A stretch of 64,000 nucleotides of DNA from Haladaptatus cibarius D43 (GTDB taxonomy: Archaea > Halobacteriota > Halobacteria > Halobacteriales > Haladaptataceae): contig NZ_JDTH01000006.1 in NCBI RefSeq assembly GCF_000710615.1, positions 62,001-126,000 on the forward strand, given 5' to 3'. The translations under genes and the position numbers were made by a program. Positions 6,625 through 49,809 of this stretch are shown piece by piece. The notes beneath the pieces were generated by a model. The model saw nothing but the letters and a program-made list of their open reading frames with translations. It did no database searches and was not told where the DNA came from. Each line of letters opens with the position of its first letter. Position 1 is the first letter of the stretch.

Positions 6625-7668
6625 ATGAAATACGACATGTCACGCGACCCCGCCCTGACTCGGCGAATCTTCGCCACCCTTTCGCTCGTCCTGCTCGCAG
6701 ATTTGGCACTCGTCGCCTGCGGTGCGTTCCTCCTTCGCCCGTGGCTCTTCCCCCTCGTCGAAAGCGCGCCCGCCGGTTTAGGATGGCTCGTTCTCGTCTT
6801 CCCTGCAACCGTAATTCTCGTCTGGGCGCAACTGCGCTACGCCCGCCGGGAGGCGCTCGCGGAAGTCGATGCGAGCGTCGTCACCGCCGACGAATATCCG
6901 AACCTCACCGCCCGAATCCGCCGTCTCGCCAGCGGGACGGACGTTCCGGTTCCGACCGTCGCTGTCACCGAGACCCCCGTCCCGAACGCATTTACGGTCG
7001 GTGGGCCGCGAAGCGCGACCATCGTCGTTTCGACCGGACTGCTCGAATCGCTCGGTGAGAACGAACTAGACGCCGTCCTCGCGCACGAACTCGCACACAT
7101 CAAAAATCGGGATGCGATGGTGATGACGCTCGCGACGTTCGTCCCGTCGCTCGCGGGCGACTACTCCCTGCTCCGCGACCTCGGACTGAGTCAGTCCGCA
7201 CGATACACGGTGTGGGCCGTCGCGCTCGCCCTGCTTTACGTTCCGAGCGCCACCGTCATCGATGCGCCGCTTTTCAGCCTCCAGTACACTCTGCTGTTCG
7301 GCCTGCTCGTCGCGTGTCTCGTCCTGTTCGGCGGCGTCGCACTGGGTATCGTGGCGATGCCGGTCGTCTCGCTCGCCAGTCGTCTCTCACACGACCGGGA
7401 GTTCATCGCCGACCGCGCGGGTGCGGTTCTCGCTGGGAGTCCGGCGTCGATGGCCTCCGCGCTCCGGACGCTGACCGAGGATGGCGAAACGGCGCCGGAA
7501 CAAGACGCTCGCGCGGTCGGCGGCGTTCGGCAACTCTGTTTCTTGCCCGGTGGATTCGGGAAAGAAACGGGCGACAGCGACCTCGAATCGCTTCCGATTT
7601 CGATGCAAACCCATCCGTCCACCGACGAGCGAATCGCTAGTCTGCGGGCGTTGGAAGCCGAAAACTGA
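6625..7668 (+). CDS. M48 family membrane metalloprotease (HtpX-like)
   Basis: 347 aa. Two N-terminal membrane helices (about residues 14-70) precede the catalytic domain. The zinc motif HELAH lies at residues 154-158 (ligands His154 and His158, catalytic Glu155). The third ligand is probably Glu259 in SHDREFIADRAG. Two more hydrophobic stretches between about 190 and 240 make this a four-span HtpX-type protease that cleaves misfolded membrane proteins. An ATG four codons downstream (6637) is an alternative start. It is divergently transcribed from the DUF58 operon, a pairing that hints at shared envelope quality control. A haloarchaeal paralogue designation cannot be assigned from sequence alone. 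Confidence 0.85.
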   Translation: MKYDMSRDPALTRRIFATLSLVLLADLALVACGAFLLRPWLFPLVESAPAGLGWLVLVFPATVILVWAQLRYARREALAEVDASVVTADEYPNLTARIRRLASGTDVPVPTVAVTETPVPNAFTVGGPRSATIVVSTGLLESLGENELDAVLAHELAHIKNRDAMVMTLATFVPSLAGDYSLLRDLGLSQSARYTVWAVALALLYVPSATVIDAPLFSLQYTLLFGLLVACLVLFGGVALGIVAMPVVSLASRLSHDREFIADRAGAVLAGSPASMASALRTLTEDGETAPEQDARAVGGVRQLCFLPGGFGKETGDSDLESLPISMQTHPSTDERIASLRALEAEN

Positions 7669-7729
7669 TTCGTCGATTCGGGAACCCCGATTCCGAACTG
7701 CCTCTTCTGGAATCTCTACTCTGGATTGT

Positions 7730-7897
7730 CTATTCTGCGGTCGTCGTTTCAGCGGGTGACCGGTCGGGTTCGAAAAACCAGTACACTGCTATCCCTATCG
7801 CCGCTTCGAGCGGCCCGATGAAAATCGCAGACAGCATGAAGAAAAAGTATGCTGCCATTCCCAGATGGTCGGCAAGCGTGGAATCAGTGTTACCCAT
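7730..7897 (-). CDS. Small membrane protein, 55 aa
   Basis: Short ORF starting MGNTDSTLADHLGM and ending in a polar acidic tail. A hydrophobic stretch runs from about residue 15 to 42 with a Gly-Pro-Leu-Glu kink in the middle, suggesting two short helices or a hairpin. An AT box reading GGATATATACA on the minus strand at 7924-7934 lies about 32 bp before the ATG, typical of haloarchaeal leaderless or short-leader promoters, which supports real expression. It is divergent from the beta-propeller gene. I do not recognise a family, and no function can be proposed beyond a membrane location. Confidence 0.55.
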   Translation of the reverse strand: MGNTDSTLADHLGMAAYFFFMLSAIFIGPLEAAIGIAVYWFFEPDRSPAETTTAE

Positions 7898-7923
7898 TGC
7901 TATCTTCTAATTGTAGGACATCT

Positions 7924-7934
7924 TGTATATATCC
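7924..7934 (-). promoter_or_regulatory. Putative TATA box of the 55-aa membrane protein gene
   Basis: AT-rich box (minus-strand GGATATATACA) centred about 32 bp before the ATG at 7897, matching archaeal TATA spacing for a leaderless or nearly leaderless transcript. Confidence 0.45.
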
Positions 7935-8042
7935 TTCGACGGTGAGTTATGTTCAAATACGAAATATACATTGGACGACGACGGGTGAATTTGAGTTGAT
8001 AAATGGGAATAATATTATCGATTGACTGATTACCCTCCGAAA

Positions 8043-9212
8043 ATGTTCGCCGACCCTCCATCACCGAACGCCAACCTCTCGCGCCGACAACTGCTCGGTG
8101 CCGGTGGTTTCGCCGCCCTCGGCGCGTGGTACGTCCGTCCCTCGGTGTTCACGGACGAACTGTTACTCGATTCGACGGTGCCGGACGACGCGTGGCCGAT
8201 GGCCGGTCGAACCCCATCCCGGTCGGGATACGCATCCTCGTCGAACGCGCCGACGAACGAGGTGCGCGCTATCTGGCAAACCGACGTCGGTGACCCCGGT
8301 TTCTACCTTTCTGTAATCGTCCGCGACGACACGGTTTACACGACGACGCGAAACGAGTTGGTCGCGCTCGACGCCGAGCGGGGAACCGAACGCTGGCGGT
8401 TCGGAAAGGAATTTATACAGGGCGGCCCAGTCGCTATCGATGGTGGAGCATGCTACAGCGCAGGAGTCAGCCTGTACGCCGTCGCCGGTGGTCGTGACAA
8501 CTGGAAGTTCAAGACGACCAGTAGCTTCAGCGAAATCCTGCCCGTCGGAAATACGATTTTTATCCCAGCATCCGACGGGAATTCGGACGTTCTCGCCGCC
8601 CTCGACGCGGGGAGCGGGATTCCACGCTGGAAAACCACTCCGGGATGGCTTCCCCTCGCCTACGCGAACGACGTTCTCGTCGGCACCGGTGGTTCGGGGT
8701 CGGTCGTGGTGGGACTCGACGCGAAAACCGGCGACAAACTGTGGGAACTGTCCAGAGTCGGATTACCCGGTAACGTTTCCTCGCCGCTTCGTTTCGGCCC
8801 CGTTATCGCAAACGGAACGCTCTTTGGCGGCAGCGAAACGCTCTACGCGGTGGATATTCAGGACGGGTCAGTACAGTGGTCTGCCGACGCGGCCGGGCCG
8901 TGGATGGCGAGTGACGGAGACGCCGTCTACCGCGCCCGAGACGGCCACATTGTCGCGCTCAACGCGTCCGACGGTAGTATGCGCTGGGAAACGTCGGCCA
9001 ACGCGTTGACCGTCGTTTCCGGCCTCGCAGTCACGGACGACGCGATTTACGTCGGCGTCGATTCCGGCGTGGTCGCACTGGACAACGAAACCGGCGACGA
9101 ACTGTTCGCGTTTCGTTCGGATTCGGCAGGCGGCGGTGGGCCGCCTGCCGTCGTCGGAAACAGAGTGTACGTCGGCATCGGCGAAACGATAGTTGCGCTG
9201 GAGGAAGCATGA
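8043..9212 (+). CDS. Tat-exported PQQ-type beta-propeller protein
   Basis: 389 aa from ATG 8043; a TTG at 8022 in the same frame is a weaker start. The N-terminus has a twin-arginine motif (SRRQLLGAGG) and a hydrophobic core, so it is exported folded by Tat. The rest is a series of PQQ/BamB-like blades, recognisable from repeated units such as LVALDAERGTERWRFG, VVGLDAKTGDKLWEL, LYAVDIQDGSVQWS and IVALNASDGSMRWET, about eight in all. Such propellers bind partners or ligands; true PQQ dehydrogenase activity is unlikely without a dedicated active site. Its stop overlaps the start of the next membrane protein gene (ATGA), so the two probably work together at the cell surface. Confidence 0.85.
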   Translation: MFADPPSPNANLSRRQLLGAGGFAALGAWYVRPSVFTDELLLDSTVPDDAWPMAGRTPSRSGYASSSNAPTNEVRAIWQTDVGDPGFYLSVIVRDDTVYTTTRNELVALDAERGTERWRFGKEFIQGGPVAIDGGACYSAGVSLYAVAGGRDNWKFKTTSSFSEILPVGNTIFIPASDGNSDVLAALDAGSGIPRWKTTPGWLPLAYANDVLVGTGGSGSVVVGLDAKTGDKLWELSRVGLPGNVSSPLRFGPVIANGTLFGGSETLYAVDIQDGSVQWSADAAGPWMASDGDAVYRARDGHIVALNASDGSMRWETSANALTVVSGLAVTDDAIYVGVDSGVVALDNETGDELFAFRSDSAGGGGPPAVVGNRVYVGIGETIVALEEA

Positions 9213-9661
9213 CGAGCGAGAACACAGCAAGCGCAAACGATGCAAGTGAAGATGGGGTCATCCGTCGCGTCAGCACTGCACTCGACAAACCACTCTGTAT
9301 CTTCGGTATTTGGTGGTGCCTGTCCATCTCAGTCAGCAGTTTTCTCTCCCTCTTTCTCGATGCGTGGTTCGCTCACCCGCTCCCGCTCTCTTCGATGGCG
9401 TTCGCGCAAATCGGAGCGCTCTTCGCCGCCGTTCTGTTCGTCGCGTACCGCCCCGATGTCGGGTACGGAAAAACGTTCACGTTTAGTGTCGCTTCACTGG
9501 TCGGTTTTGTCGTCCTCAGCTTTGCTACCGGAGGCGAATTGTTCCCCAATTCGAACGTTTCCGGGTCGCTGTACCCCGCCCTCGACATCGCGCTTCTGTC
9601 GATAGCCGCGACTCTGTTCGGCTACGCGCTGGTTTTGCGGCCGATCGAATCGCCGGACTGA
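9209..9661 (+). CDS. Four-helix membrane protein of unknown function
   Basis: 150 aa. A polar N-terminus of about 27 residues is followed by four hydrophobic segments (around residues 28-50, 60-82, 90-108 and 122-143). The pairs of helices are joined by a short basic turn (YRPDVGYGK) and a Gly/Asn-rich loop. The start overlaps the stop of the beta-propeller gene by four bases, indicating translational coupling and probably a membrane partner for that exported protein. I do not recognise the family. Confidence 0.65.
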   Translation: MTSENTASANDASEDGVIRRVSTALDKPLCIFGIWWCLSISVSSFLSLFLDAWFAHPLPLSSMAFAQIGALFAAVLFVAYRPDVGYGKTFTFSVASLVGFVVLSFATGGELFPNSNVSGSLYPALDIALLSIAATLFGYALVLRPIESPD

Positions 9662-40759: not shown

Positions 40760-40876
40760 AGCTTCCCCTCTTTTCCCCGGTTACAATACTGTTCCGGCGT
40801 TGACCGGCATGTCCAATTTCGATGACACTGACCTGAACACTTTTGTGAGGTGCCGATAAACGGGTTGCTACAGCAC

Positions 40877-41710
40877 ATGACCACAAACGTCCTACTGACG
40901 GGTGCGTTCGGGCGTGTCGGCACGGCCATCATCGACCACCTCGCAGACAGAGATGAGTACGAGTTCACGTATCTCAACCGGTCGGAACGAGAGGAATACG
41001 ACACGTTCGTCGCGGACGTTTCGAACTACGAGGAGATGCGTCCGGCCTTCGACGACCAAGATGCGGTTATCCACCTCGCTGGCTACCCGGAAACCGACGG
41101 TACGTGGGAACAGATACTACAAAACAACATCATCGGGATGCAGAACACGCTCCAAGCCGCCAGAGACGCGGAGGTGCCGAAGTTCATCTTCGGTTCCACC
41201 AATCACGTCGTCGGCATGTACGAAGCGGAGTTCGCACCCGAACTATACGAACCCGGTTTCGACCTGCTGGTTGACCAAGATTCACCCCGGCGTCCAGACT
41301 CCTACTACGGAACCTCGAAATCGTTCGACGAAGACCTCGGTCGGTACTACGTCGAGAACTACGACTACCCAGAGCAGTTCTACTCGCTTCGGATCTGCTC
41401 GGTTCGCCACGAGGAGTACGACCACCCCTACGGCGACGCAGAACACGGCGCAGACGAAGGAGAGTGGGAGCGAGGTAGTCCAGAATACGATCTGAAAGTC
41501 GCGCGGATGAAGGCGATGTGGCAGTCCCGCCGCGACCTCGCTCAGCAAGTCGATTGCTGTCTGCGAGACGACGACGTGGAATACGACGTATTCTTCGGCG
41601 TCAGCGACAACGACCGCCGATGGTTCAGCATCGAACACGGACGGGACGTTATCGGATACGACCCGCAGGACAACGGCGAGGAGTGGGACGCGCCGCCGGA
41701 GGGGAACTAA
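40877..41710 (+). CDS. Extended-SDR NAD(P)-dependent sugar dehydrogenase (candidate ribose dehydrogenase)
   Basis: 277 aa from ATG 40877 (MTTNVLLTGAFGRVG). The glycine motif is TGAFGRVGTAI, the strand after it contains Asn-Arg for cofactor recognition (TYLNRSERE), and the catalytic pair is in SYYGTSKSFDED (Tyr-x-x-x-Lys). The type matches the uronate-dehydrogenase-like group that includes haloarchaeal L-arabinose dehydrogenase and glucose-6-phosphate dehydrogenase Azf. As I recall, a haloarchaeal ribose dehydrogenase belongs there too. Its stop codon directly precedes the nucleoside hydrolase ATG, which makes ribose from nucleosides the most economical substrate. Confidence 0.8.
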   Translation: MTTNVLLTGAFGRVGTAIIDHLADRDEYEFTYLNRSEREEYDTFVADVSNYEEMRPAFDDQDAVIHLAGYPETDGTWEQILQNNIIGMQNTLQAARDAEVPKFIFGSTNHVVGMYEAEFAPELYEPGFDLLVDQDSPRRPDSYYGTSKSFDEDLGRYYVENYDYPEQFYSLRICSVRHEEYDHPYGDAEHGADEGEWERGSPEYDLKVARMKAMWQSRRDLAQQVDCCLRDDDVEYDVFFGVSDNDRRWFSIEHGRDVIGYDPQDNGEEWDAPPEGN

Positions 41711-42661
41711 ATGACGAAGAAACTGCTCCTCGACGTTGACCCCGGAATCGACGACGCGCTTGCGATTCTGATGGCGCTCGGAAACGACGATGTGGAAGTC
41801 GTCGGCCTGACCACGGTCATGGGGAACACGACCATCGAGAACACAACGAACAACGCCCTCGCACTGCTGGAGTTCGTGGACAGAACCGACATTCCCGTCG
41901 CGGAGGGTGCAGGCCGTCCGTTTGCGGATGAACTCGTGATGGCCGAATACGTCCATGGGCCGGGCGGCGTGCCGGAAACCGTTCGTGAGGCGCTTCCTGA
42001 CCCGTCCACTGACCCCATCGACCAGCATGCCGCCGACTTCATCCTCGAACAAGCGGAGAAGTACGGCGACGACCTCACAATCGCCGCGGTCGGCCCCCAA
42101 ACGAACGTCGCGCTGGCGATGGCGAAAGACCCGACGCTTCCAGATACCGTCGCGGACATCTACCAGATGGGCGGCGCGCTGAAGACGACGGGGAACATCA
42201 CGCCGCAGGCGTCCTTTAATTTCTACGTCGATGCCGCCGCCGCGGCCCGCGTCGTGCAGGACGGGTGGCCGACCGTCGTCGGCCTCGATGTAACTGAACC
42301 GGCGCATCTCCCGCCAGAGGCGCAGAAGCGCTTCCGCGGACGGGGTTCGCTCGGCGACGTTATCGCGGACATCCTCGAATACAAGGCACAGGGGCCGGAC
42401 GGAACGGTCGCCGAAGGTGGTTCCATCACGAGTGACGCGGTTGTCTTGGCAGGTTTCCTCGGCAACCCGCTGACCTACGAGGATGCCTACGTGGAAATCG
42501 ACACGACGGACGGGCCGTCGAACGGCGCGACCGTCTACGACGAACACGGCGTCTACGAGAAACAGCCGAACTGCACCGTCGCGCTCGATGTGGACATCGA
42601 GCGCTGTCGTGAGGTCATCATGTCGAACTTAGAGAAGCTACTGCCCGAGGGAGACGCATGA
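41711..42661 (+). CDS. Nucleoside hydrolase 1
   Basis: 316 aa. The calcium-site motif LLLDVDPGIDDALAIL at the N-terminus and the second signature NITPQASFNFYVDAAAAARV identify the inosine-uridine nucleoside N-ribohydrolase family, which splits ribonucleosides into base and ribose. A late ASP-rich and GPSNGATVYDEHGVYE segment closes the active site. It begins immediately after the sugar dehydrogenase stop and overlaps the next gene by four bases (ATGA). It is paralogous to the protein at 46590, with two segments nearly identical at the nucleotide level but a divergent 222-bp middle. Confidence 0.9.
   Translation: MTKKLLLDVDPGIDDALAILMALGNDDVEVVGLTTVMGNTTIENTTNNALALLEFVDRTDIPVAEGAGRPFADELVMAEYVHGPGGVPETVREALPDPSTDPIDQHAADFILEQAEKYGDDLTIAAVGPQTNVALAMAKDPTLPDTVADIYQMGGALKTTGNITPQASFNFYVDAAAAARVVQDGWPTVVGLDVTEPAHLPPEAQKRFRGRGSLGDVIADILEYKAQGPDGTVAEGGSITSDAVVLAGFLGNPLTYEDAYVEIDTTDGPSNGATVYDEHGVYEKQPNCTVALDVDIERCREVIMSNLEKLLPEGDA
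42155..42262 (+). repeat. Block A shared with 47034-47141 (nucleoside hydrolase paralogues)
   Basis: 108 bp aligned without gaps to the same reading frame at 47034-47141, with seven mismatches by eye, six of them synonymous. The flanking middle segment of the two genes is only about one third identical in protein. This suggests recent gene conversion. Confidence 0.7.
42485..42559 (+). repeat. Block B shared with 47364-47438 (nucleoside hydrolase paralogues)
   Basis: 75 bp with three mismatches to the second paralogue at 47364-47438. It lies exactly 222 bp after block A in both genes, showing colinear mosaic structure. Confidence 0.7.
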
Positions 42662-43110
42662 ATCGAATACTTGCCGTCGTTAAGCCGACGGACACGGATG
42701 TGGAACTGCTCGAAGAGGCTGGCGCGGTCGCCGCGGGAACGGGCGTCGAGGTAGTCGTCCTCGCGCTCGTGTCGGAGGGAAGCGAGGATGCGTCGGTGGA
42801 CTCGATACGGCAGTGGGACGGCTTCGACGCCACCAAAACCGACGAAACGGCGGAAACCGTCAATCGATTTGCGGAGTACCTCGGGAGTCAGATTCTCGAC
42901 CCGTTCGGGGTCGAGTATCTCGCCGTCGGCGAGCGAATCGAAACCACCCGACCGTCGAGCAAAATCATCGACGTCGCGGAAAACCACGACTGTGACCACG
43001 TCTACGTCAGCAACCGCGGTCGGTCGCCGACTGGAAAGGCACTGTTCGGTGACACGACCCAGTCTGTGATTCTGAACTTCGACGGGTTCGTCACGGTGCG
43101 AACTGCGTAA
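42658..43110 (+). CDS. Universal-stress-protein-like single-domain protein
   Basis: 150 aa. Alternating strands at the start (RILAVVKPTD, GVEVVVLALV) and the end (CDHVYVSNRGRSPTGKALFG followed by SVILNFDGFVTV) match a UspA fold, with the G-x2-G-x9-G-type ATP loop degenerate (RGRSPTGKALFGD). It starts within the nucleoside hydrolase stop (ATGA) and ends the operon before the ECF S-component gene. Its role is unknown; the fixed position between nucleoside hydrolase and importer suggests that it may bind a nucleotide or nucleoside-derived ligand. Confidence 0.65.
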   Translation: MNRILAVVKPTDTDVELLEEAGAVAAGTGVEVVVLALVSEGSEDASVDSIRQWDGFDATKTDETAETVNRFAEYLGSQILDPFGVEYLAVGERIETTRPSSKIIDVAENHDCDHVYVSNRGRSPTGKALFGDTTQSVILNFDGFVTVRTA

Positions 43111-43283: not shown

Positions 43284-43913
43284 ATGTCAAGCACAGGTGC
43301 CACGACTAGTACGAGTCGTATCGAACGGTTTCGTGAAAACGTTTCGGAGGATTTCACGACGACAACGTGGGTGCTCATTCCATTGGGTATCGGCATCAAC
43401 GCAATCGGCGGATTCATCGCAAGTACGCTGAAGCTCCCGCTGTTTTTGGACAACATCGGGACGATGCTCATCGGCATCCTCGCCGGACCGTGGGCGGCTG
43501 CGCTGACCGGTGCCCTCGCGAATCTCATTCAAGCGATGCTCGGAAACCCGGTTCAACTTGCGTTCATGCCGGTTCCGGTCGCTATCGGCCTTGTTACGGG
43601 ATTTCTAGCTCGCAGAGGGTGGTTCGACAGCGTGAAGAAGACGATTGTTCCGGCCATCGTCCTCACCGTCGTGGCCACCATCATCGCGACGCCCATCGTC
43701 GTCCTCGTGTTCGGCGGCGTCACCAGTTCAGGAACGAGTTTGGTCACTGCGACACTCGTTGCGACGGGTCGAAGCCTCGTCGAAAGCGCGGCCACCGCAC
43801 AGTTCGCCGTCGAGTTCGTGGACAAAGGTGGGTCGGCCTTCATCGCCTACTTCATCGGAAAGTCGGTTCCGTCCCGATACCTCCCGCCACAGGGGCAAGA
43901 TATATATTCGTAG
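43284..43913 (+). CDS. ECF importer S component (substrate-binding membrane subunit)
   Basis: 209 aa, about six helices. After a short polar N-terminus, LIPLGIGINAIGGFIAS and the loop LPLFLDNIGTMLIGILAGPWAAALTG are characteristic of S components of energy-coupling-factor importers. The end FIAYFIGKSVPSRYLPP is cytosolic. It determines specificity. Its place between two nucleoside hydrolases and beside the sugar-oxidation genes implies a nucleoside or ribose substrate, but no signature for a known vitamin S family is recognised. Confidence 0.8.
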   Translation: MSSTGATTSTSRIERFRENVSEDFTTTTWVLIPLGIGINAIGGFIASTLKLPLFLDNIGTMLIGILAGPWAAALTGALANLIQAMLGNPVQLAFMPVPVAIGLVTGFLARRGWFDSVKKTIVPAIVLTVVATIIATPIVVLVFGGVTSSGTSLVTATLVATGRSLVESAATAQFAVEFVDKGGSAFIAYFIGKSVPSRYLPPQGQDIYS

Positions 43914-44003: not shown

Positions 44004-44783
44004 ATGCCTGATTCGGATACCTCGATATACCAACCCGGCGAGAGCATACTGCACAGAATGAATCCGGTGACGGAAATCGTGCTTGCAACCTGTCTCTCGT
44101 TGGTGGTGTTCATCGTCGGCGACTACCGAATCCCGCTCGCGCTGGCGCTCGTTTTGATCGGGTTCGTGTTCGTCGCACGAGTGCACGGCCTCCTCCTCAA
44201 ACTGTACGGAGCAGTTGCCGTGCCGTTCGCGTTCTTCTTGCTCCTCATTCAGGGCATTCTGCTCAGGCCAGCAGACCCGACGGCGTTGTACACGTTCGGT
44301 TCGATAACCGTTTGGGAGTCGGGCTTCGAGCAGGCACGACTGATATTCCTGCGAATCAGCGTCCTCATACTGGCGTTCCTGTTGTTCGCCACGACGGCAC
44401 AGCCACAACGGATGCGTATCGCTCTCATGGAGAAGGGGGTGCCGAGCAAACTCGCATACGTGTTCATCGCATCGCTCCAGATAATCCCGGAAATTCGAGA
44501 TAGAGCAGGGGCCATCTCGGAAGCACAGCAGGCACGTGGACTCGACACCACGGCGGACGTTCGGACGCGCCTTTCGTCCATCGTCGCGCTGTTGGCCCCC
44601 CTGCTCATCAGTACGCTCATCGTCGCAAACACGCGAGCGTTGGCGCTCAACGCCCGCGGATTCCAATCTGAAGGACCACGGACGTACCTGTACGAGGTTT
44701 CCGACCCGACGGGCGAGCGCGTTCTGCGATACCTCGGTGGCGTTGCAGTTATCGCGGCAATCGGATGGAGGATTCTCATATGA
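44004..44783 (+). CDS. ECF importer T component (EcfT)
   Basis: 259 aa, about six to eight helices. The family signature is in FIASLQIIPEIRDRAGAISEAQQARGLDTT near residues 150-182, containing an A-x-x-A-R-G coupling helix, and a second coupling helix ends NARGFQSEGPRTYLYE. It links the S component to the ATPase. The gene ends with an ATGA overlap onto the ATPase gene. Confidence 0.85.
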   Translation: MPDSDTSIYQPGESILHRMNPVTEIVLATCLSLVVFIVGDYRIPLALALVLIGFVFVARVHGLLLKLYGAVAVPFAFFLLLIQGILLRPADPTALYTFGSITVWESGFEQARLIFLRISVLILAFLLFATTAQPQRMRIALMEKGVPSKLAYVFIASLQIIPEIRDRAGAISEAQQARGLDTTADVRTRLSSIVALLAPLLISTLIVANTRALALNARGFQSEGPRTYLYEVSDPTGERVLRYLGGVAVIAAIGWRILI

Positions 44784-46519
44784 GTTTGATAGAACTACAC
44801 GACGTAACGTTTCAGTACGGCACCCAACCTGACGACGAATACGCCGTCAACGACATCGATTTCAGTATCGAAGAGGGCCAGTTCGTCGGAATCACGGGAC
44901 AGAGTGAGGCAGGGAAGGCGACCCTCTGTCGGCTCATCTCCGGGCAGATTCCCCACTTCTACCACGGTGACCTCTCGGGAACGATCACCGTCGAAGGGGC
45001 TTCGACGGTCGAATCGACCGTCGGCGACCTTTCGAAGAAAATCGGATTCGTCTTCGAAAACCCCTACGACCAGCTTACGGGAGCGACCTCGACCGTCCTC
45101 GAAGAGGTCGCGTTCGGACTCGAAAGCCACGGTCTTACACGCGACGAAATGCGCGACCGGGCACGTGACAGCCTCGCCGCAATCGGGGTCGAAGACCTCG
45201 CTGACCGGAACCCGATGCAACTCTCCGGTGGGCAGTGCCAGCGCGTCGCCATCGCATCCGTCATCGCAATGCAACCTGACGTGATGGTTCTCCGGCAACC
45301 CACGGCACAGCTCGACCCGGAGGGAACCGAAGAGGTGTTCGACGTTGTCGGGTCGATGAACGAGGACGGATACACCATCGTGATGGTCAGCCAAGAGATA
45401 GAGCGATTGGTTCCCCACCTCGACCGACTCGTCGTGATGGACGACGGTACAATCCGGTTCGACGGACGGCCGGACAACGTTCTCGTCCGGGCAATCGAGG
45501 AGGGGCTTCCAATCCCCGTTCCCGACCCTGTCGAAATCGGACACCGACTCCGTGACGCCGGAACCGTCTCGGCCGACGAACCGATTCCGGTGACGGAGTC
45601 CGGTTGTCTGTCGGAACTCCGCCGTGTCGGCAACGGTCGGCTTCTCGGAAGCAAAACGGACGGCGGGCACAGCGCTTCGCCGCGCGACGAACCTCTCGAC
45701 GAGACGGCCGACATCGTCCTCGATGAATTGCATCATCAGTACCCAAGCGGTGTCAAGGCGCTTCGCGGCGTCTCCTTCTCGCTCGATGACGGCTGTGTCT
45801 GTCTCATCGGTCAAAACGGTGCGGGAAAATCCACGTTGGTAAAGCACCTGAACGCGCTCCTCGAACCGACCGAGGGAGTTGCGTACATCCGTGGTGCGAA
45901 CACGAGCGAACACACCACGGCCGAACTCGCCCACGAGGTTGGCCTGAGCTTTCAGAATCCGGACGACCAACTCTTCCACAGCACCGTCGAAGAGGAGATA
46001 CAGTATGGCCCACGAAACCTCGACTTTGACGACGAAAAAGTGACGGAAACGACCGAACAGGCGCTACAATTGCTCGGATTAGACGAACGGCGGAACGAGA
46101 ATCCGTACGACTTCGGCGAACCGTGGCGCAAGCGAGTCGCAGTGGCGTCCATCGTTGCGATGGACACGCCGATAGTCGTCCTCGACGAACCGACGAGCGG
46201 ACAGGACGCGCCGGGATACGAACGGCTTGGACACGCCGTCGATACCCTCGCCGACCAGGGAAAACTCGTCGTCATCATCACGCACGACATGGATTTCGTG
46301 CGCGAGCACGCAGACCGAACTGTTCTCCTCGCAGAAGGACAGGTCATCGCGGACGGCGATACACGCGACGTGTTGGGCGATGCCGAAACGCTCTCTCGCT
46401 CGAACGTCCATCCGCCGACGGTGACGCGACTGAGTCTCGAACTCGGCGTCGGTTCGCTCCTCTCCGTCGAGGAGTTACTGGACGCCATCGGCGTTTCGAC
46501 GGACGGTACATCGCCGTAG
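44780..46519 (+). CDS. Fused double ATPase of the ECF importer, asymmetric active sites
   Basis: 579 aa from ATG 44780. NBD1 (about residues 1-240) has GQSEAGKAT (Lys46 but Ala47), the intact signature LSGGQ (148-152), yet its Walker B reads VMVLRQPT with Arg172 and Gln173 in place of Asp and Glu, and its switch His is Gln205. NBD2 (about 315-545) has an intact GQNGAGKST (Lys350), VVLDEPT (Asp469, Glu470) and a switch His (THDMDF), but its signature is FGEPW (445-449) instead of LSGGQ. In the head-to-tail dimer only the NBD2 Walker site facing the NBD1 signature would hydrolyse ATP. It completes the ECF importer. Confidence 0.9.
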   Translation: MSLIELHDVTFQYGTQPDDEYAVNDIDFSIEEGQFVGITGQSEAGKATLCRLISGQIPHFYHGDLSGTITVEGASTVESTVGDLSKKIGFVFENPYDQLTGATSTVLEEVAFGLESHGLTRDEMRDRARDSLAAIGVEDLADRNPMQLSGGQCQRVAIASVIAMQPDVMVLRQPTAQLDPEGTEEVFDVVGSMNEDGYTIVMVSQEIERLVPHLDRLVVMDDGTIRFDGRPDNVLVRAIEEGLPIPVPDPVEIGHRLRDAGTVSADEPIPVTESGCLSELRRVGNGRLLGSKTDGGHSASPRDEPLDETADIVLDELHHQYPSGVKALRGVSFSLDDGCVCLIGQNGAGKSTLVKHLNALLEPTEGVAYIRGANTSEHTTAELAHEVGLSFQNPDDQLFHSTVEEEIQYGPRNLDFDDEKVTETTEQALQLLGLDERRNENPYDFGEPWRKRVAVASIVAMDTPIVVLDEPTSGQDAPGYERLGHAVDTLADQGKLVVIITHDMDFVREHADRTVLLAEGQVIADGDTRDVLGDAETLSRSNVHPPTVTRLSLELGVGSLLSVEELLDAIGVSTDGTSP

Positions 46520-46589: not shown

Positions 46590-47528
46590 ATGAATACGAA
46601 ACTACTGCTGGACGTAGACCCCGGAAACGACGACGCTATCGCACTGTTCATCGCACTTGCCGACGACGACGTTGATGTCGTCGGCATCACGACGGTGGCG
46701 GGCAACACGACGGTGGACAACGCGACACGAAACACGCTGTCCCTCCTCGAACTGGTCGATAGAACGGACGTTCCCGTTGCGAAGGGCGCGGGCCGTCCGC
46801 TCGCGGACGAACTGGAGATGGCAGAACACGTCCACGGGCCGGACGGCCTCCCCGAGGTGGTCAGAGAGGGCCTTTCCGAGCCATCGACCGAGACGATAGA
46901 CCAGCACGCCGTCGATTTCATCATCGAACAGGCACACGAACACGGCGAGGACTTGACCATCGCGGCGCTCGGGCCGCAGACCAACCTCGCCTTGGCGCTC
47001 GCAAAGGAACCATCGCTTTCCGAGATGGTCGGCGACATCTATCAGATGGGTGGCGCGCTGAAGACGACGGGGAACGTCACGCCGCAGGCGTCCTTTAACT
47101 TCTACGTCGATGCCGCCGCCGCGGCCCGTGTCGTGCAAGATGCGAATCCGAAAGTCGTCGGCCTCGACGTGACGGAACACGTCTACGTGGACACGGAAGA
47201 TATTCTGGAACTCGCCGAGGAGGCGGCCCCCCTTCCCACGATGGCCGCCATTCTGGAGTTCAGTATCGAGGAAGTTCGCTCGAAGTTCGGGCACGACGGT
47301 GGACTGGCGAGCGATGCGGTCGTTCTGGCCGACATCGTCAACGACGCGCTCGACTTCGAAGACGCCTACGTGGAAATCGACACGACGGGCGGGCCGTCGA
47401 ACGGCGCGACCATCTACGACGAACACGGCGTCTACGAAAACCCACCGAACTGCGAGGTAGCGCTCGGTGTGGATGGAGACGCGTACCAGCGCACGGTTCT
47501 CGAAAGTCTTCGTACATTCGTTGAGTAA
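46590..47528 (+). CDS. Nucleoside hydrolase 2
   Basis: 312 aa. LLLDVDPGNDDAIALF holds the calcium-binding aspartates, and VTPQASFNFYVDAAAAARV the substrate segment, as in nucleoside hydrolase 1. The last segment, GPSNGATIYDEHGVYE, is also shared. The middle part (about residues 186-258) is quite different from the paralogue, so its base or sugar preference may differ. It follows the ECF ATPase gene by 70 bp and closes the cluster. The gene is a natural partner for the importer: imported nucleosides would be cleaved to base and ribose. Confidence 0.88.
   Translation: MNTKLLLDVDPGNDDAIALFIALADDDVDVVGITTVAGNTTVDNATRNTLSLLELVDRTDVPVAKGAGRPLADELEMAEHVHGPDGLPEVVREGLSEPSTETIDQHAVDFIIEQAHEHGEDLTIAALGPQTNLALALAKEPSLSEMVGDIYQMGGALKTTGNVTPQASFNFYVDAAAAARVVQDANPKVVGLDVTEHVYVDTEDILELAEEAAPLPTMAAILEFSIEEVRSKFGHDGGLASDAVVLADIVNDALDFEDAYVEIDTTGGPSNGATIYDEHGVYENPPNCEVALGVDGDAYQRTVLESLRTFVE
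47034..47141 (+). repeat. Block A of the nucleoside hydrolase 2 copy
   Basis: 108 bp partner of 42155-42262, same reading frame, seven mismatches by eye. See the paired entries in nucleoside hydrolase 1. Confidence 0.7.
47364..47438 (+). repeat. Block B of the nucleoside hydrolase 2 copy
   Basis: 75 bp partner of 42485-42559 with three mismatches. Distance from block A is 222 bp in both copies. Confidence 0.7.
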
Positions 47529-47650: not shown

Positions 47651-47881
47651 ATGTTTGGTTGGAGTTCCGGTCGGAACGAAAAACTCGCTCTTCGACTTAG
47701 CGACGCGCGAATCGTCTGCAACTTGTGTGGTCGATCATATCCGGTGACGGCCCTCTCGAAGTTGGCGTCTGTGAGTGCGAACGGTACGTATTGTCGTCGC
47801 ACACAGTATGGAAATTTGTATATAACTGCGCACCCAACAATCGGTAAATGGAATCGACACAGCAGACGCAACCGCAGGTAG
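47651..47881 (+). CDS. Small Cys-motif protein upstream of the SMC-like gene (possible)
   Basis: 76 aa. ATG 47651 lies 29 bp after a TATA-like TTATAATT (47618-47625), which fits a leaderless gene. It contains ARIVCNLCGRSYP with a CxxC and a later Cys, so it could bind zinc with a partner. Its last 34 bp overlap the SMC-like start in a different frame, and the SMC gene's own TATA box lies inside it, which casts some doubt. Codon usage is not decisive. Confidence 0.35.
   Translation: MFGWSSGRNEKLALRLSDARIVCNLCGRSYPVTALSKLASVSANGTYCRRTQYGNLYITAHPTIGKWNRHSRRNRR
47819..47825 (+). promoter_or_regulatory. Putative TATA box of the SMC-like gene
   Basis: TATATAA centred 26 bp before the ATG at 47848, optimal spacing for a leaderless haloarchaeal transcript. 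Confidence 0.6.
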
Positions 47882-49809
47882 AGGTTTCCGCACACAACAT
47901 CGGCGGAATTGACCGGACTGCCGTTACCTTCTCTCCGGGTGTGACTATCCTCACTGGTCGAAACGCGACGAACCGAACGTCGTTCCTCCAAGCCATCATG
48001 GCGGCGCTCGGCAGTGAGCGAGCCTCGGTCAAGGCTGATGCCGACGAAGGATCGGTCGAACTCTCCATCGGTGACGAAACCTACACACGAACGCTCACCC
48101 GGAAAAACGGCACTATTGCAACGAGCGGCGACCCGTATCTCGACGACGCGGAACTCATCGATCTCTTTTCATTCTTGCTCGAATCGAACGAAGCGCGACG
48201 CGCGGTCGCGCGGGGAGACGACCTCCGGAATCTCATCATGCGTCCCGTCGATACCGAAGCGATTCAGACGGAAATCGAGCGACTCACTGCCGAGAAACGT
48301 CGCATCGACGACGAACTGGAGGAGTTGGAGTCGCTCGGTCAAACGCTTCCGACGCTCGAAGAGAAGCAAGCCCGATTGGCGAACGAAATCGAAGCGAAAC
48401 GAGCAACGCTCGAAGCGAAAGAAGCAGAGCTAGAAGCGGCGGATGCTGACCTCGGTGAGACTCGTGCGGAACAAAGCGAACTGGAATCGAAGTTGGAGAC
48501 GCTTCGTGAAACGCGGTCACATCTGGAAGACATTCGGTTCAAAATCGGAACGGAAGAGGACAGTATCGAAGCATTACAGAACGAACTCGCCGAACTCGAA
48601 GACGAGCAAGCCGACCTCTCCGACGTCTCGACCGACACGGTTTCGGAATACGACCAGCGACTGGGAACGCTCCGCGAACGCAAACAACAGCTCAATTCGG
48701 TCGTGAGCGAACTGCAGACGATTATCCAGTTCAACGAGGAGATGCTCGGCGGGACCAATCCAGATATTCGCGCTGCACTCCAGTCGGAAGCCGAAACGGG
48801 CGGCGAGAACGGGTCAGTTACCGACCAACTCGTCGCCGAAACGGAGACCGTCGTCTGCTGGACGTGTGGAACGGACGTCGAAAAGCAGACAATCGAATCG
48901 ACGATCGACCAACTTCGAACGTTTCGTCAAGAAACGCTCGACGAACGCAGTGATCTGAGCGCCGAGATTGACGACCTCGAAGCGGAGAAAGCAGAACTCG
49001 AAACGAAACGACAGAAACGGGATAGCATCGAACAGCGTAGAAAACAACTCGAAACCGAACTCGACGACCGGAACGCCCGACTCGACGACCTCCGCGACGA
49101 ACGCGCCAGCGTAACCGGCGACATCGAAGCGCTCGAAGAGACGGTCGAGGAACTCGAACAGGAAGATTACAGCCAGCTACTCGACTTGCATCGTGAGGCG
49201 AATCAACTCGAATTCGAACTGGAGCGGCTCGAAACTGACCTCGAAGACGTGGAATCAGAACGTTCGAATATCGAAGATAAACTGTCCGAAAAGGAAAAAC
49301 TGGAAGACCGACGAGCCGAGATTCGAGACGAATTGGCAGACCTCCGGACGAGAATCGAGCAGATCGAAGCCGACGCCGTAGAGGAGTTCAACGAACATAT
49401 GGCGCGCATGCTCGACCTGCTCGACTACGAAAACCTCGAACGGATTTGGATAGAACGCACGGAGCGAACTGTTCGTGAGGGTCGGCGGAAAGTTACCAAA
49501 AGCGTGTTCGAACTGCATATCGTCCGGAGTACGGAGTCCGGTGCAACCTACGAGGATACGATAGACCATCTCAGCGAGAGCGAACGGGAAGTCACCGGCC
49601 TCGTGTTTGCGCTTGCGGGGTATCTCGTTCACGAAGTGTACGACCACGTTCCGTTCATCCTTCTCGACTCGCTCGAAGCAATCGACTCGAACCGTATTGC
49701 GAGACTCGTGAACTATTTCAGCGACTATGCGGGGTATCTCGTGGCTGCACTGCTACCGGAGGACGCCGCCGCGCTCGACGACGAGTACGAGCGCGTCGCC
49801 GAAATCTAA
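47848..49809 (+). CDS. Archaea-specific SMC/Rad50-like coiled-coil protein
   Basis: 653 aa. A nucleotide-binding head begins with VSAHNIGGIDRTAVTFSPG. The Walker A position reads GRNATNRTS (37-45), in which the usual second Gly and Lys are Asn and Arg. Long heptad-rich coiled coils (about 130-320 and 345-520) flank a zinc-hook-like CWTC (Cys337, Cys340) similar to Rad50. The C-terminal head has LSESEREVTGLVFAL in the signature position and FILLDSLEAID in the Walker B position, with Ser where Glu is normal. I recognise it as the haloarchaeal SMC-related group; some relatives affect cell shape. ATP hydrolysis is uncertain. Confidence 0.8.
   Translation: MESTQQTQPQVEVSAHNIGGIDRTAVTFSPGVTILTGRNATNRTSFLQAIMAALGSERASVKADADEGSVELSIGDETYTRTLTRKNGTIATSGDPYLDDAELIDLFSFLLESNEARRAVARGDDLRNLIMRPVDTEAIQTEIERLTAEKRRIDDELEELESLGQTLPTLEEKQARLANEIEAKRATLEAKEAELEAADADLGETRAEQSELESKLETLRETRSHLEDIRFKIGTEEDSIEALQNELAELEDEQADLSDVSTDTVSEYDQRLGTLRERKQQLNSVVSELQTIIQFNEEMLGGTNPDIRAALQSEAETGGENGSVTDQLVAETETVVCWTCGTDVEKQTIESTIDQLRTFRQETLDERSDLSAEIDDLEAEKAELETKRQKRDSIEQRRKQLETELDDRNARLDDLRDERASVTGDIEALEETVEELEQEDYSQLLDLHREANQLEFELERLETDLEDVESERSNIEDKLSEKEKLEDRRAEIRDELADLRTRIEQIEADAVEEFNEHMARMLDLLDYENLERIWIERTERTVREGRRKVTKSVFELHIVRSTESGATYEDTIDHLSESEREVTGLVFALAGYLVHEVYDHVPFILLDSLEAIDSNRIARLVNYFSDYAGYLVAALLPEDAAALDDEYERVAEI

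Follow-up and report, generated by a model that had tools for sequence, protein, structure and literature searches.

Can an importer of the energy-coupling factor (ECF) type run when one of its two ATP sites has lost its catalytic residues? The question is raised by a gene of Haladaptatus cibarius D43 that lies in the stretch of DNA analysed here (the window: 64,000 nucleotides of contig NZ_JDTH01000006.1, positions 62,001 to 126,000 of the forward strand) and encodes a fused ECF ATPase, EcfA1-EcfA2. A first-pass annotation, made from the DNA letters alone, had proposed that its two nucleotide-binding domains (NBD1 and NBD2) carry complementary losses that leave one composite site complete and the other dead. 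We regard it as quite likely that the protein is an ECF importer motor that hydrolyses ATP at one site while the other serves for binding or structure, with a nucleoside or base as the most likely substrate. As far as the residues tell, an ECF-type importer can probably run on one ATP-hydrolysing site.

Composite sites were assigned with the head-to-tail pairing rule for ATP-binding cassette (ABC) proteins, as given in part of PMC7756269. Site 1 combines the Walker A, Q-loop, Walker B, and switch histidine of NBD1 with the signature of NBD2; site 2 combines the Walker motifs, Q-loop, and histidine of NBD2 with the LSGGQ of NBD1. All residues previously named were present, with the same numbering, in the translation of 44780-46519 (Table 1). 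In site 1, the Walker A Ser/Thr, Q-loop Gln, and switch His of NBD1 are gone together with both of its Walker B acids, and so is the signature that NBD2 would contribute; the Walker Lys and the A-loop aromatic residues of NBD1 are still there. Site 2 has lost no motif. Every loss listed in the first-pass annotation was thus recovered, and the replacement of the NBD1 Q-loop Gln by Glu93 (FENP), which it had missed, is to be added. The protein shows the asymmetric pattern of a degenerate nucleotide-binding site (NBS): one composite site lacks the catalytic Glu and the facing signature, and the other is complete. The complementary losses are indeed confined to one composite site, and the pattern is kept by selection; the residues support one complete and one dead site, in the sense that site 1 would not be expected to hydrolyse ATP.

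Table 1. Motifs of the fused ATPase and genes of the surrounding cluster, in window coordinates.
Feature	Position	Strand	Basis or remark
Fused ECF ATPase EcfA1-EcfA2, 579 aa, one composite site degenerate	44780..46519	+	translation, profile scores
NBD1 Walker A GQSEAGKATL (residues 40-49), K46 kept, Ser/Thr to Ala47	44897..44926	+	site 1
NBD1 Q-loop/Q-helix FENPYDQL, Gln to Glu93	45053..45076	+	site 1; Glu in 26/26 orthologues, Gln in 18/18 distant rows
NBD1 signature MQLSGGQCQR, LSGGQ residues 148-152	45215..45244	+	site 2, intact; LSGGQ in 26/26 orthologues
NBD1 Walker B VMVLRQPTAQLD (residues 168-179), Asp-Glu to Arg172-Gln173	45281..45316	+	site 1
NBD1 switch region MVSQEIE, His to Gln205	45383..45403	+	site 1
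NBD2 Walker A GQNGAGKSTL (residues 344-353)	45809..45838	+	site 2, intact
NBD2 signature position YDFGEPWRKR (443-452; FGEPW 445-449), LSGGQ lost	46106..46135	+	site 1
NBD2 Walker B IVVLDEPTSGQD, VVLDEPTSGQD, D469 E470	46172..46207	+	site 2, intact
NBD2 switch region IITHDMD, H502	46274..46294	+	site 2, intact
ECF T component, 259 aa, both X-Arg-X coupling motifs kept (QARGL, NARGF)	44004..44783	+	CbiQ PF02361, 99.7 bits
ECF S component, 209 aa, CD3073-like	43284..43913	+	PF12822 40.7 bits (cut-off 30.7); NF045596 130.9 bits (cut-off 180)
Universal-stress-family (Usp) protein, conserved neighbour	42658..43110	+	
Inosine-uridine-type nucleoside hydrolase 1	41711..42661	+	
Inosine-uridine-type nucleoside hydrolase 2	46590..47528	+	
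NAD-dependent epimerase/dehydratase, conserved neighbour	40850..41710	+	resembles Azf (below cut-off)

Residues 4-264 of the ATPase were best matched by ECF_ATPase_1 (TIGR04520, 210.9) and residues 313-555 by ECF_ATPase_2 (TIGR04521, 215), each below its cut-off (315 and 330, respectively), and the closest solved chains were EcfA1 for NBD1 and EcfA2 or CbiO for NBD2. The T component (PF02361) and the S component (PF12822) scored above their cut-offs; the latter is a relative, not a member, of the CD3073 type (NF045596). In the T component, the Arg of both coupling motifs is kept in 28 of 28 rows. The cluster therefore holds what marks a dedicated ECF module: A1- and A2-type ATPases, a two-motif T component, and an S component. 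The ATPase gene overlaps the end of the T gene by 4 bases; an alternative in-frame ATG lies at 44765, and the start at 44780 was retained. The nearest named relative in the genome collection was Haladaptatus litoreus, with 96% identity for the fused ATPase.

Prediction of the dimer, which the first-pass annotation had proposed as a check, favoured the same assignment of sites. The AlphaFold2 model, built from a 28-row alignment in which the added rows were single ABC proteins of several kinds, reached a mean predicted local distance difference test score (pLDDT) of 87.8 and a predicted template modelling score (pTM) of 0.81; the arrangement was not judged from an 8-row model (pTM 0.49). The two domains are predicted to lie head to tail, and the whole chain aligned with the ATP-bound fused DppD of Mycobacterium tuberculosis (residues 1-548, 483 aligned, root-mean-square deviation [rmsd] 3.1, Z 31.3), as well as with several states of ABCB1. 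The M. tuberculosis OppD/DppD matches were used for the NBD arrangement only. For NBD2 alone, 265 residues aligned with the EcfA2 chain of 8bms, a closed ECF module (rmsd 2.1).

Orthologues were collected from a class-level haloarchaeal sample, in which 61 of 391 genomes had a match at E 1e-60 or better, and from family-level haloarchaeal searches, with matches in 5/28, 8/170, 4/10, 4/18, 4/125, and 3/146 genomes, together with individually named loci. The resulting set comprised 26 intact proteins including that of the window, to which the others are about 39-96% identical; more distant fused EcfAs were 29-35% identical. Motifs were counted in 10 close and 16 earlier-branching orthologues and in 18 distant rows, one of them bacterial. 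Site 2 (K350, S/T351, Q392, D469, E470, H502, and the LSGGQ of NBD1) is intact in all 26 orthologues. Site 1 keeps the Walker Lys, carries Glu in the Q-loop, and lacks an LSxG signature in every one of them, and it is without the switch His in 23, the catalytic Glu in 11, and the Walker A Ser/Thr in 9. Among the 16 earlier-branching orthologues, all have lost the signature, have the Q-loop Glu, and keep the Walker A Ser/Thr; the His is replaced in 14 and the catalytic Glu in one (L123). In the 10 close orthologues, the Walker B Asp-Glu is always replaced (Gln-Gln in 7, Arg-Gln in 3), the Walker A Ser/Thr has become Ala in 9 (Ser is kept in L118), and the His is replaced in 9 (present in L125). 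The order of loss thus runs from the signature, Q-loop, and switch His in the 26-member clade, through Walker B in the 10-member subclade, to the Walker A Ser/Thr in 9 members.

The distant rows had canonical NBD1 motifs in 18 of 18 cases and an NBD2 signature of the form LSxG, with x not Gly and a first letter of Leu (15), Met (2), or Phe (1). The haloarchaeal fused EcfAs L139-L154 keep LSGGQ/E in NBD1, but Lys, Val, Leu, His, or Ile replaces the first Gly in the signature of NBD2; at the level of sequence, this change is a milder asymmetry.

A maximum-likelihood tree built without the motif columns placed a single loss of the NBD2 signature at the base of the 26-row clade (Shimodaira-Hasegawa-like approximate likelihood-ratio test [SH-aLRT] 100). 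Walker B was lost twice, in the 10-row subclade (SH-aLRT 100) and in L123; Walker A changed once and the switch His four times. A search for close homologues with both halves canonical, which the first-pass annotation had named as the finding that would overturn its proposal, came back empty: LSGGQ occurs in NBD2 in 0 of 26 orthologues and Gln in the NBD1 Q-loop in 0 of 26. The idea that both sets of replacements are fixed held for the signature loss and the Q-loop Glu (26/26), while the other replacements proved graded and not universal.

Ratios of nonsynonymous to synonymous substitution (dN/dS, Nei-Gojobori) were computed for the window gene against L001, L004, L002, L003, and L125, in that order. 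The values were 0.050, 0.055, 0.068, 0.104, and 0.132 for NBD1 and 0.079, 0.063, 0.066, 0.120, and 0.137 for NBD2, with 0.166-0.584 for the linker. Other pairs gave higher values, up to 0.217 (NBD1) and 0.290 (NBD2) for L117 versus L118, where dS is near saturation. Purifying selection on the degenerate half is as strong as on the catalytic half. The site 1 replacements were also seen in genomes that had been sequenced independently, at 76-96% identity (L001-L004, L125), with some variation (QQ for RQ; the His of L125). Sequencing error or local decay was rejected on these two grounds, the recurrence of the motifs in independent genomes and the low dN/dS. In one relative (L124 in genome G322, 6784-9284), a second fused-ATPase copy has a frameshift in NBD1; the same genome has an intact copy.

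The first-pass annotation knew of no such arrangement in ECF importers; it is not private to the window gene, and other ECF modules, including some with separate EcfA1 and EcfA2 genes, have it too. A plasmid-collection search gave 56 matches among 72,556 records at E 1e-40 or better, and further rows came from follow-up and from L158, L163, L005-L007, and L188. The EcfA2 signature is lost in separate-gene pairs of Escherichia coli and Salmonella (LHSAQ/LHAAQ), Lactiplantibacillus and Lactococcus (LSLSE), and Enterococcus raffinosus (LPYSK). The partner EcfA1 is intact at the motifs checked in E. raffinosus, has the switch His changed to Arg in E. coli and Salmonella, and has Glu changed to Asp and His to Ser in Lactiplantibacillus and Lactococcus. 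Against the CD3073 model (cut-off 180), S components scored 104.4 (E. raffinosus), 88.1 (Lactiplantibacillus), and 140.3 bits (Salmonella), all below the cut-off.

The E. coli operon was seen in strain D1 (L202:1468-4544), where genes for a PPC-domain DNA-binding protein, S, T, A1, and A2 adjoin epd. Its EcfA2 signature is LHSAQ, and its EcfA1 lacks the D-loop Asp besides having Arg for the switch His; at least 80% of the S-to-A2 stretch is present in 3292 of 5426 complete E. coli genomes. A second group with site 1 degenerate and site 2 intact was found in Halorussus, in a second copy of Haladaptatus halobius, in G063, and in Rubrobacter, and the same holds for Thermomicrobium roseum. L189, L190, L186, L188, and L179 form this second group of fused ATPases with the one-site pattern (Halorussus, Haladaptatus, Rubrobacter); the gene upstream of the L189 ATPase, in the position of S, matched no NCBIfam model.

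The two halves of site 1 were compared in 70 EcfA1+EcfA2 pairs, with canonical control pairs from Enterococcus faecalis, Subdoligranulum, Acetoanaerobium, and Bacillus subtilis (L192-L195). Because these pairs were picked up through their resemblance to the window protein or to one of its relatives, the sample is uneven, and a class with site 2 lost could have escaped it. L202 is not among them, and L200 (truncated EcfA1), L176 (a near-copy of L191), L178, both pieces of L124 (the frameshifted copy), and both pieces of L134 (a fragment) were left out. In the L. salivarius plasmid locus (L200:5315-5912), EcfA1 is apparently shortened and a separate hypothetical protein is annotated behind it. 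All 70 pairs have the NBD2 Asp-Glu, His, K[ST], and Gln together with an [LM]SGG signature in NBD1. When the NBD2 signature was LSxG, the NBD1 Glu and His were both intact (34/34) and the NBD1 Q-loop had Gln (34/34). When it was lost, the Glu was lost in 19 of 36 pairs and the His in 32 of 36, both were kept in three (L122, L130, L191), and the Q-loop had Glu in 32 of 36. On the pairs, the most parsimonious history has the signature changing 4 times, the Glu 5 times, and the His 8 times. A 31-row group joining the 26 orthologues with Streptomyces, Enterococcus, Salmonella, and Lactobacillales pairs had a support of 94, and long branches make the deep placements unsure; the tree suggests at least three separate origins of site 1 degeneracy.

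Fusion of the two ATPases as the cause of the asymmetry was rejected. Separate genes show the pattern too (L191, L196, L197, L199, L202), and many fused proteins are canonical save for the x in LSxG (L180, L181, L183, L184, L158, L005-L007); fused L185 is canonical at the motifs bar the D-loop Asp, and fused L163 is wholly canonical.

S and T genes were present at 26 of 26 orthologous loci, with S downstream in L115 and at a distance in L122. The order epimerase, hydrolase 1, Usp, T, A, hydrolase 2 is kept at all 10 close loci, which therefore all have two nucleoside hydrolases, and S lies between Usp and T in 9. In E. raffinosus, the order is S-T-A1-A2-nucleoside hydrolase. An H. pallidirubidus plasmid (L201:4456-5088) carries a CD3073-like S component near two nucleoside 2-deoxyribosyltransferases, with T and A genes absent in the fetched stretch; this S component may share a module. 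No nucleoside hydrolase was found in the fetched flanks of the distant haloarchaeal loci L139-L154 (0/16). Hydrolase and deoxyribosyltransferase neighbours suggest that the substrate may be a nucleoside or its base. Just downstream of the cluster, the window encodes a long coiled-coil protein (47848-49809), SMC/Rad50-like by eye, which is conserved beside the cluster in L001 and is in pieces in L004.

In canonical ECF transporters, ATP binding closes the ATPases, drives the coupling helices of T, and expels S, and hydrolysis resets the system, according to passages of PMC10368641 and PMC12075633. For the window module, S, T, and the fused ATPase of one cluster would form a dedicated importer, in which NBD1 and NBD2 are expected to make the usual head-to-tail dimer. 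ATP would be hydrolysed solely at site 2. Site 1, which has lost its Mg ligands besides the catalytic Glu, Q-loop Gln, His, and facing signature, probably holds ATP, perhaps without Mg, or remains partly closed. It would serve as a hinge, so that the two coupling helices of T are drawn together and released once per hydrolysis at site 2, and this movement would expel and then recapture the S component. In the simplest scheme, each cycle would cost a single hydrolysis, carried out at the NBD2 site. A precedent comes from Lactobacillus delbrueckii ECF-FolT2 under turnover, where ATP remains in EcfA and ADP is found in EcfA' (in the part of PMC10368641 on turnover). L. delbrueckii EcfA is the EcfA1 chain because the E169Q primer spells IILDQSTSM, which aligns with VLRQPTAQL of the window protein; the site that keeps ATP in this two-site transporter is therefore the one that is degenerate here. 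The same source, in part, describes the C-terminal Arg174 of the FolT2 S component as stacking on the ATP in EcfA. The [VI]PxRY motif at the C-terminal end of the S components studied here may, by analogy, be its counterpart, a lead only.

Several observations weigh against a motor of this kind. In L. delbrueckii ECF-CbrT, EcfA E169Q or EcfA' E171Q alone caused severe growth defects (PMC10368641, in part); a canonical ECF transporter therefore needs both glutamates, and a one-site form must have compensated. Fifteen of the 16 earlier-branching orthologues keep the NBD1 Walker B Glu, so that residual hydrolysis at site 1 is possible there. Few events (4 signature changes) underlie the coupled loss of the two site 1 halves, with one independent pair on well-supported branches (4 on all) and no significant sign test. 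Beyond the close orthologues, the association with hydrolases weakens: a nucleoside hydrolase lies in the fetched flanks of 7 of 16 earlier loci. No biochemical data on any one-site ECF transporter were found.

Site 1 could instead be a regulatory pocket that binds a nucleotide or the imported nucleoside or base and switches the motor (trans-inhibition), in place of a passive ATP clamp. The Walker Lys and A-loop aromatics stay while catalytic residues go, NBD1 is constrained as much as NBD2, and the operon, judged by its neighbours, handles nucleosides. However, a passive clamp accounts for the same residues, and the relevant passages of PMC7756269 discuss degenerate sites as non-hydrolysing ATP sites, not as substrate sensors; we consider a regulatory pocket unlikely. 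A two-site motor with unequal rates, in which site 1 hydrolyses ATP slowly via alternative residues, would suit the earlier-branching orthologues with their NBD1 Asp-Glu (Glu in 15/16) and E. raffinosus, whose EcfA1 has all motifs checked and only the partner signature is lost. In the window protein, neither Walker B acid is left, and the Walker A Ser/Thr, Q-loop Gln, and His are replaced as well, which makes slow hydrolysis there quite improbable. That both sites are effectively dead and the gene is the decaying relic of a transporter is scarcely credible, since the six altered functional positions and the second, frameshifted copy in one relative are set against low dN/dS in both NBDs, a perfect site 2 in 26/26 orthologues, S, T, and A at 26/26 loci, and losses that are ordered and confined to one composite site. 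A wider proposal, which we hold to be unlikely, extends the single-site motor to an old and widespread one-hydrolysis ECF subfamily in Enterobacteria, Lactobacillales, and haloarchaea, where the EcfA2 signature was lost first and the EcfA1 site stepwise, with the dead site of the window protein gating the motor as a sensor of nucleotides or nucleosides.

The proposed single-site motor bears on how many ATP molecules, one or two, are hydrolysed per expulsion of the S component, a question on which the L. delbrueckii mutants say that both glutamates are needed and the turnover structure shows one-site hydrolysis (both from parts of PMC10368641). This question becomes testable with a subfamily that naturally has no glutamate in EcfA1 and in which present-day proteins represent each step of loss, and the E. 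coli operon, which carries the pattern at an early stage, allows study in a tractable host; the graded series and this operon are the main value of the present analysis. Degeneracy of a site is best known from exporters; in ECF importers, too, it seems to have arisen repeatedly, and in this sample always at the same one of the two sites.

How does this arrangement compare with known systems? NupO is part of a nucleoside importer. In the fused importer ATPases RbsA and NupO (B. subtilis), one site is degenerate, with altered signature and Walker motifs (part of PMC11466899). They resemble the window protein in having two NBDs in one importer chain and one degenerate site, but they belong to type II importers with binding proteins, and their second Walker A lacks the Lys, so that Walker motifs are lost from the opposite half of the chain. 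The first-pass annotation had likened the protein to CFTR and TAP. These, together with TM287/288, BmrCD, and Pdr5, are good analogues of the site layout, since their degenerate NBS1 combines altered NBD1 Walker motifs and His with an altered NBD2 signature, and NBD2 signature changes are present in all human degenerate sites (PMC7756269, in part); nevertheless, fused importers with one degenerate site, RbsA and NupO, were already in print. The CFTR-type proteins are exporters or channels whose NBDs are tied to their own large transmembrane domains, and Pdr5 loses the Walker Lys, which the NBD1 of the window protein keeps. One-site ABC proteins are therefore known among exporters, channels, and fused type II importers; among ECF transporters they appear to be new, as no report of a degenerate or one-site ECF ATPase was found in the open-access literature searched with the terms used. 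Searches of that literature for a nucleoside-importing ECF transporter showed none either.

The QrtT/QueT and QueK genes are located together. QrtT/QueT ECF transporters import a modified base or nucleoside, and the pathway uses the nucleoside hydrolase QueK (part of PMC11130926). The window locus likewise combines ECF import with nucleoside hydrolases, although its S component is CD3073-like. Canonical ECF transporters, such as ECF-FolT2 and ECF-CbrT of L. delbrueckii, share the S-T-A1-A2 parts, the coupling motifs of T, and the correspondence of NBD1 to EcfA1 and of NBD2 to EcfA2/CbiO. Unlike the window protein, they have two canonical sites and need both Walker B glutamates; Gln173 of the window protein is the natural match of the engineered E169Q in L. 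delbrueckii EcfA1, joined here by five further losses.

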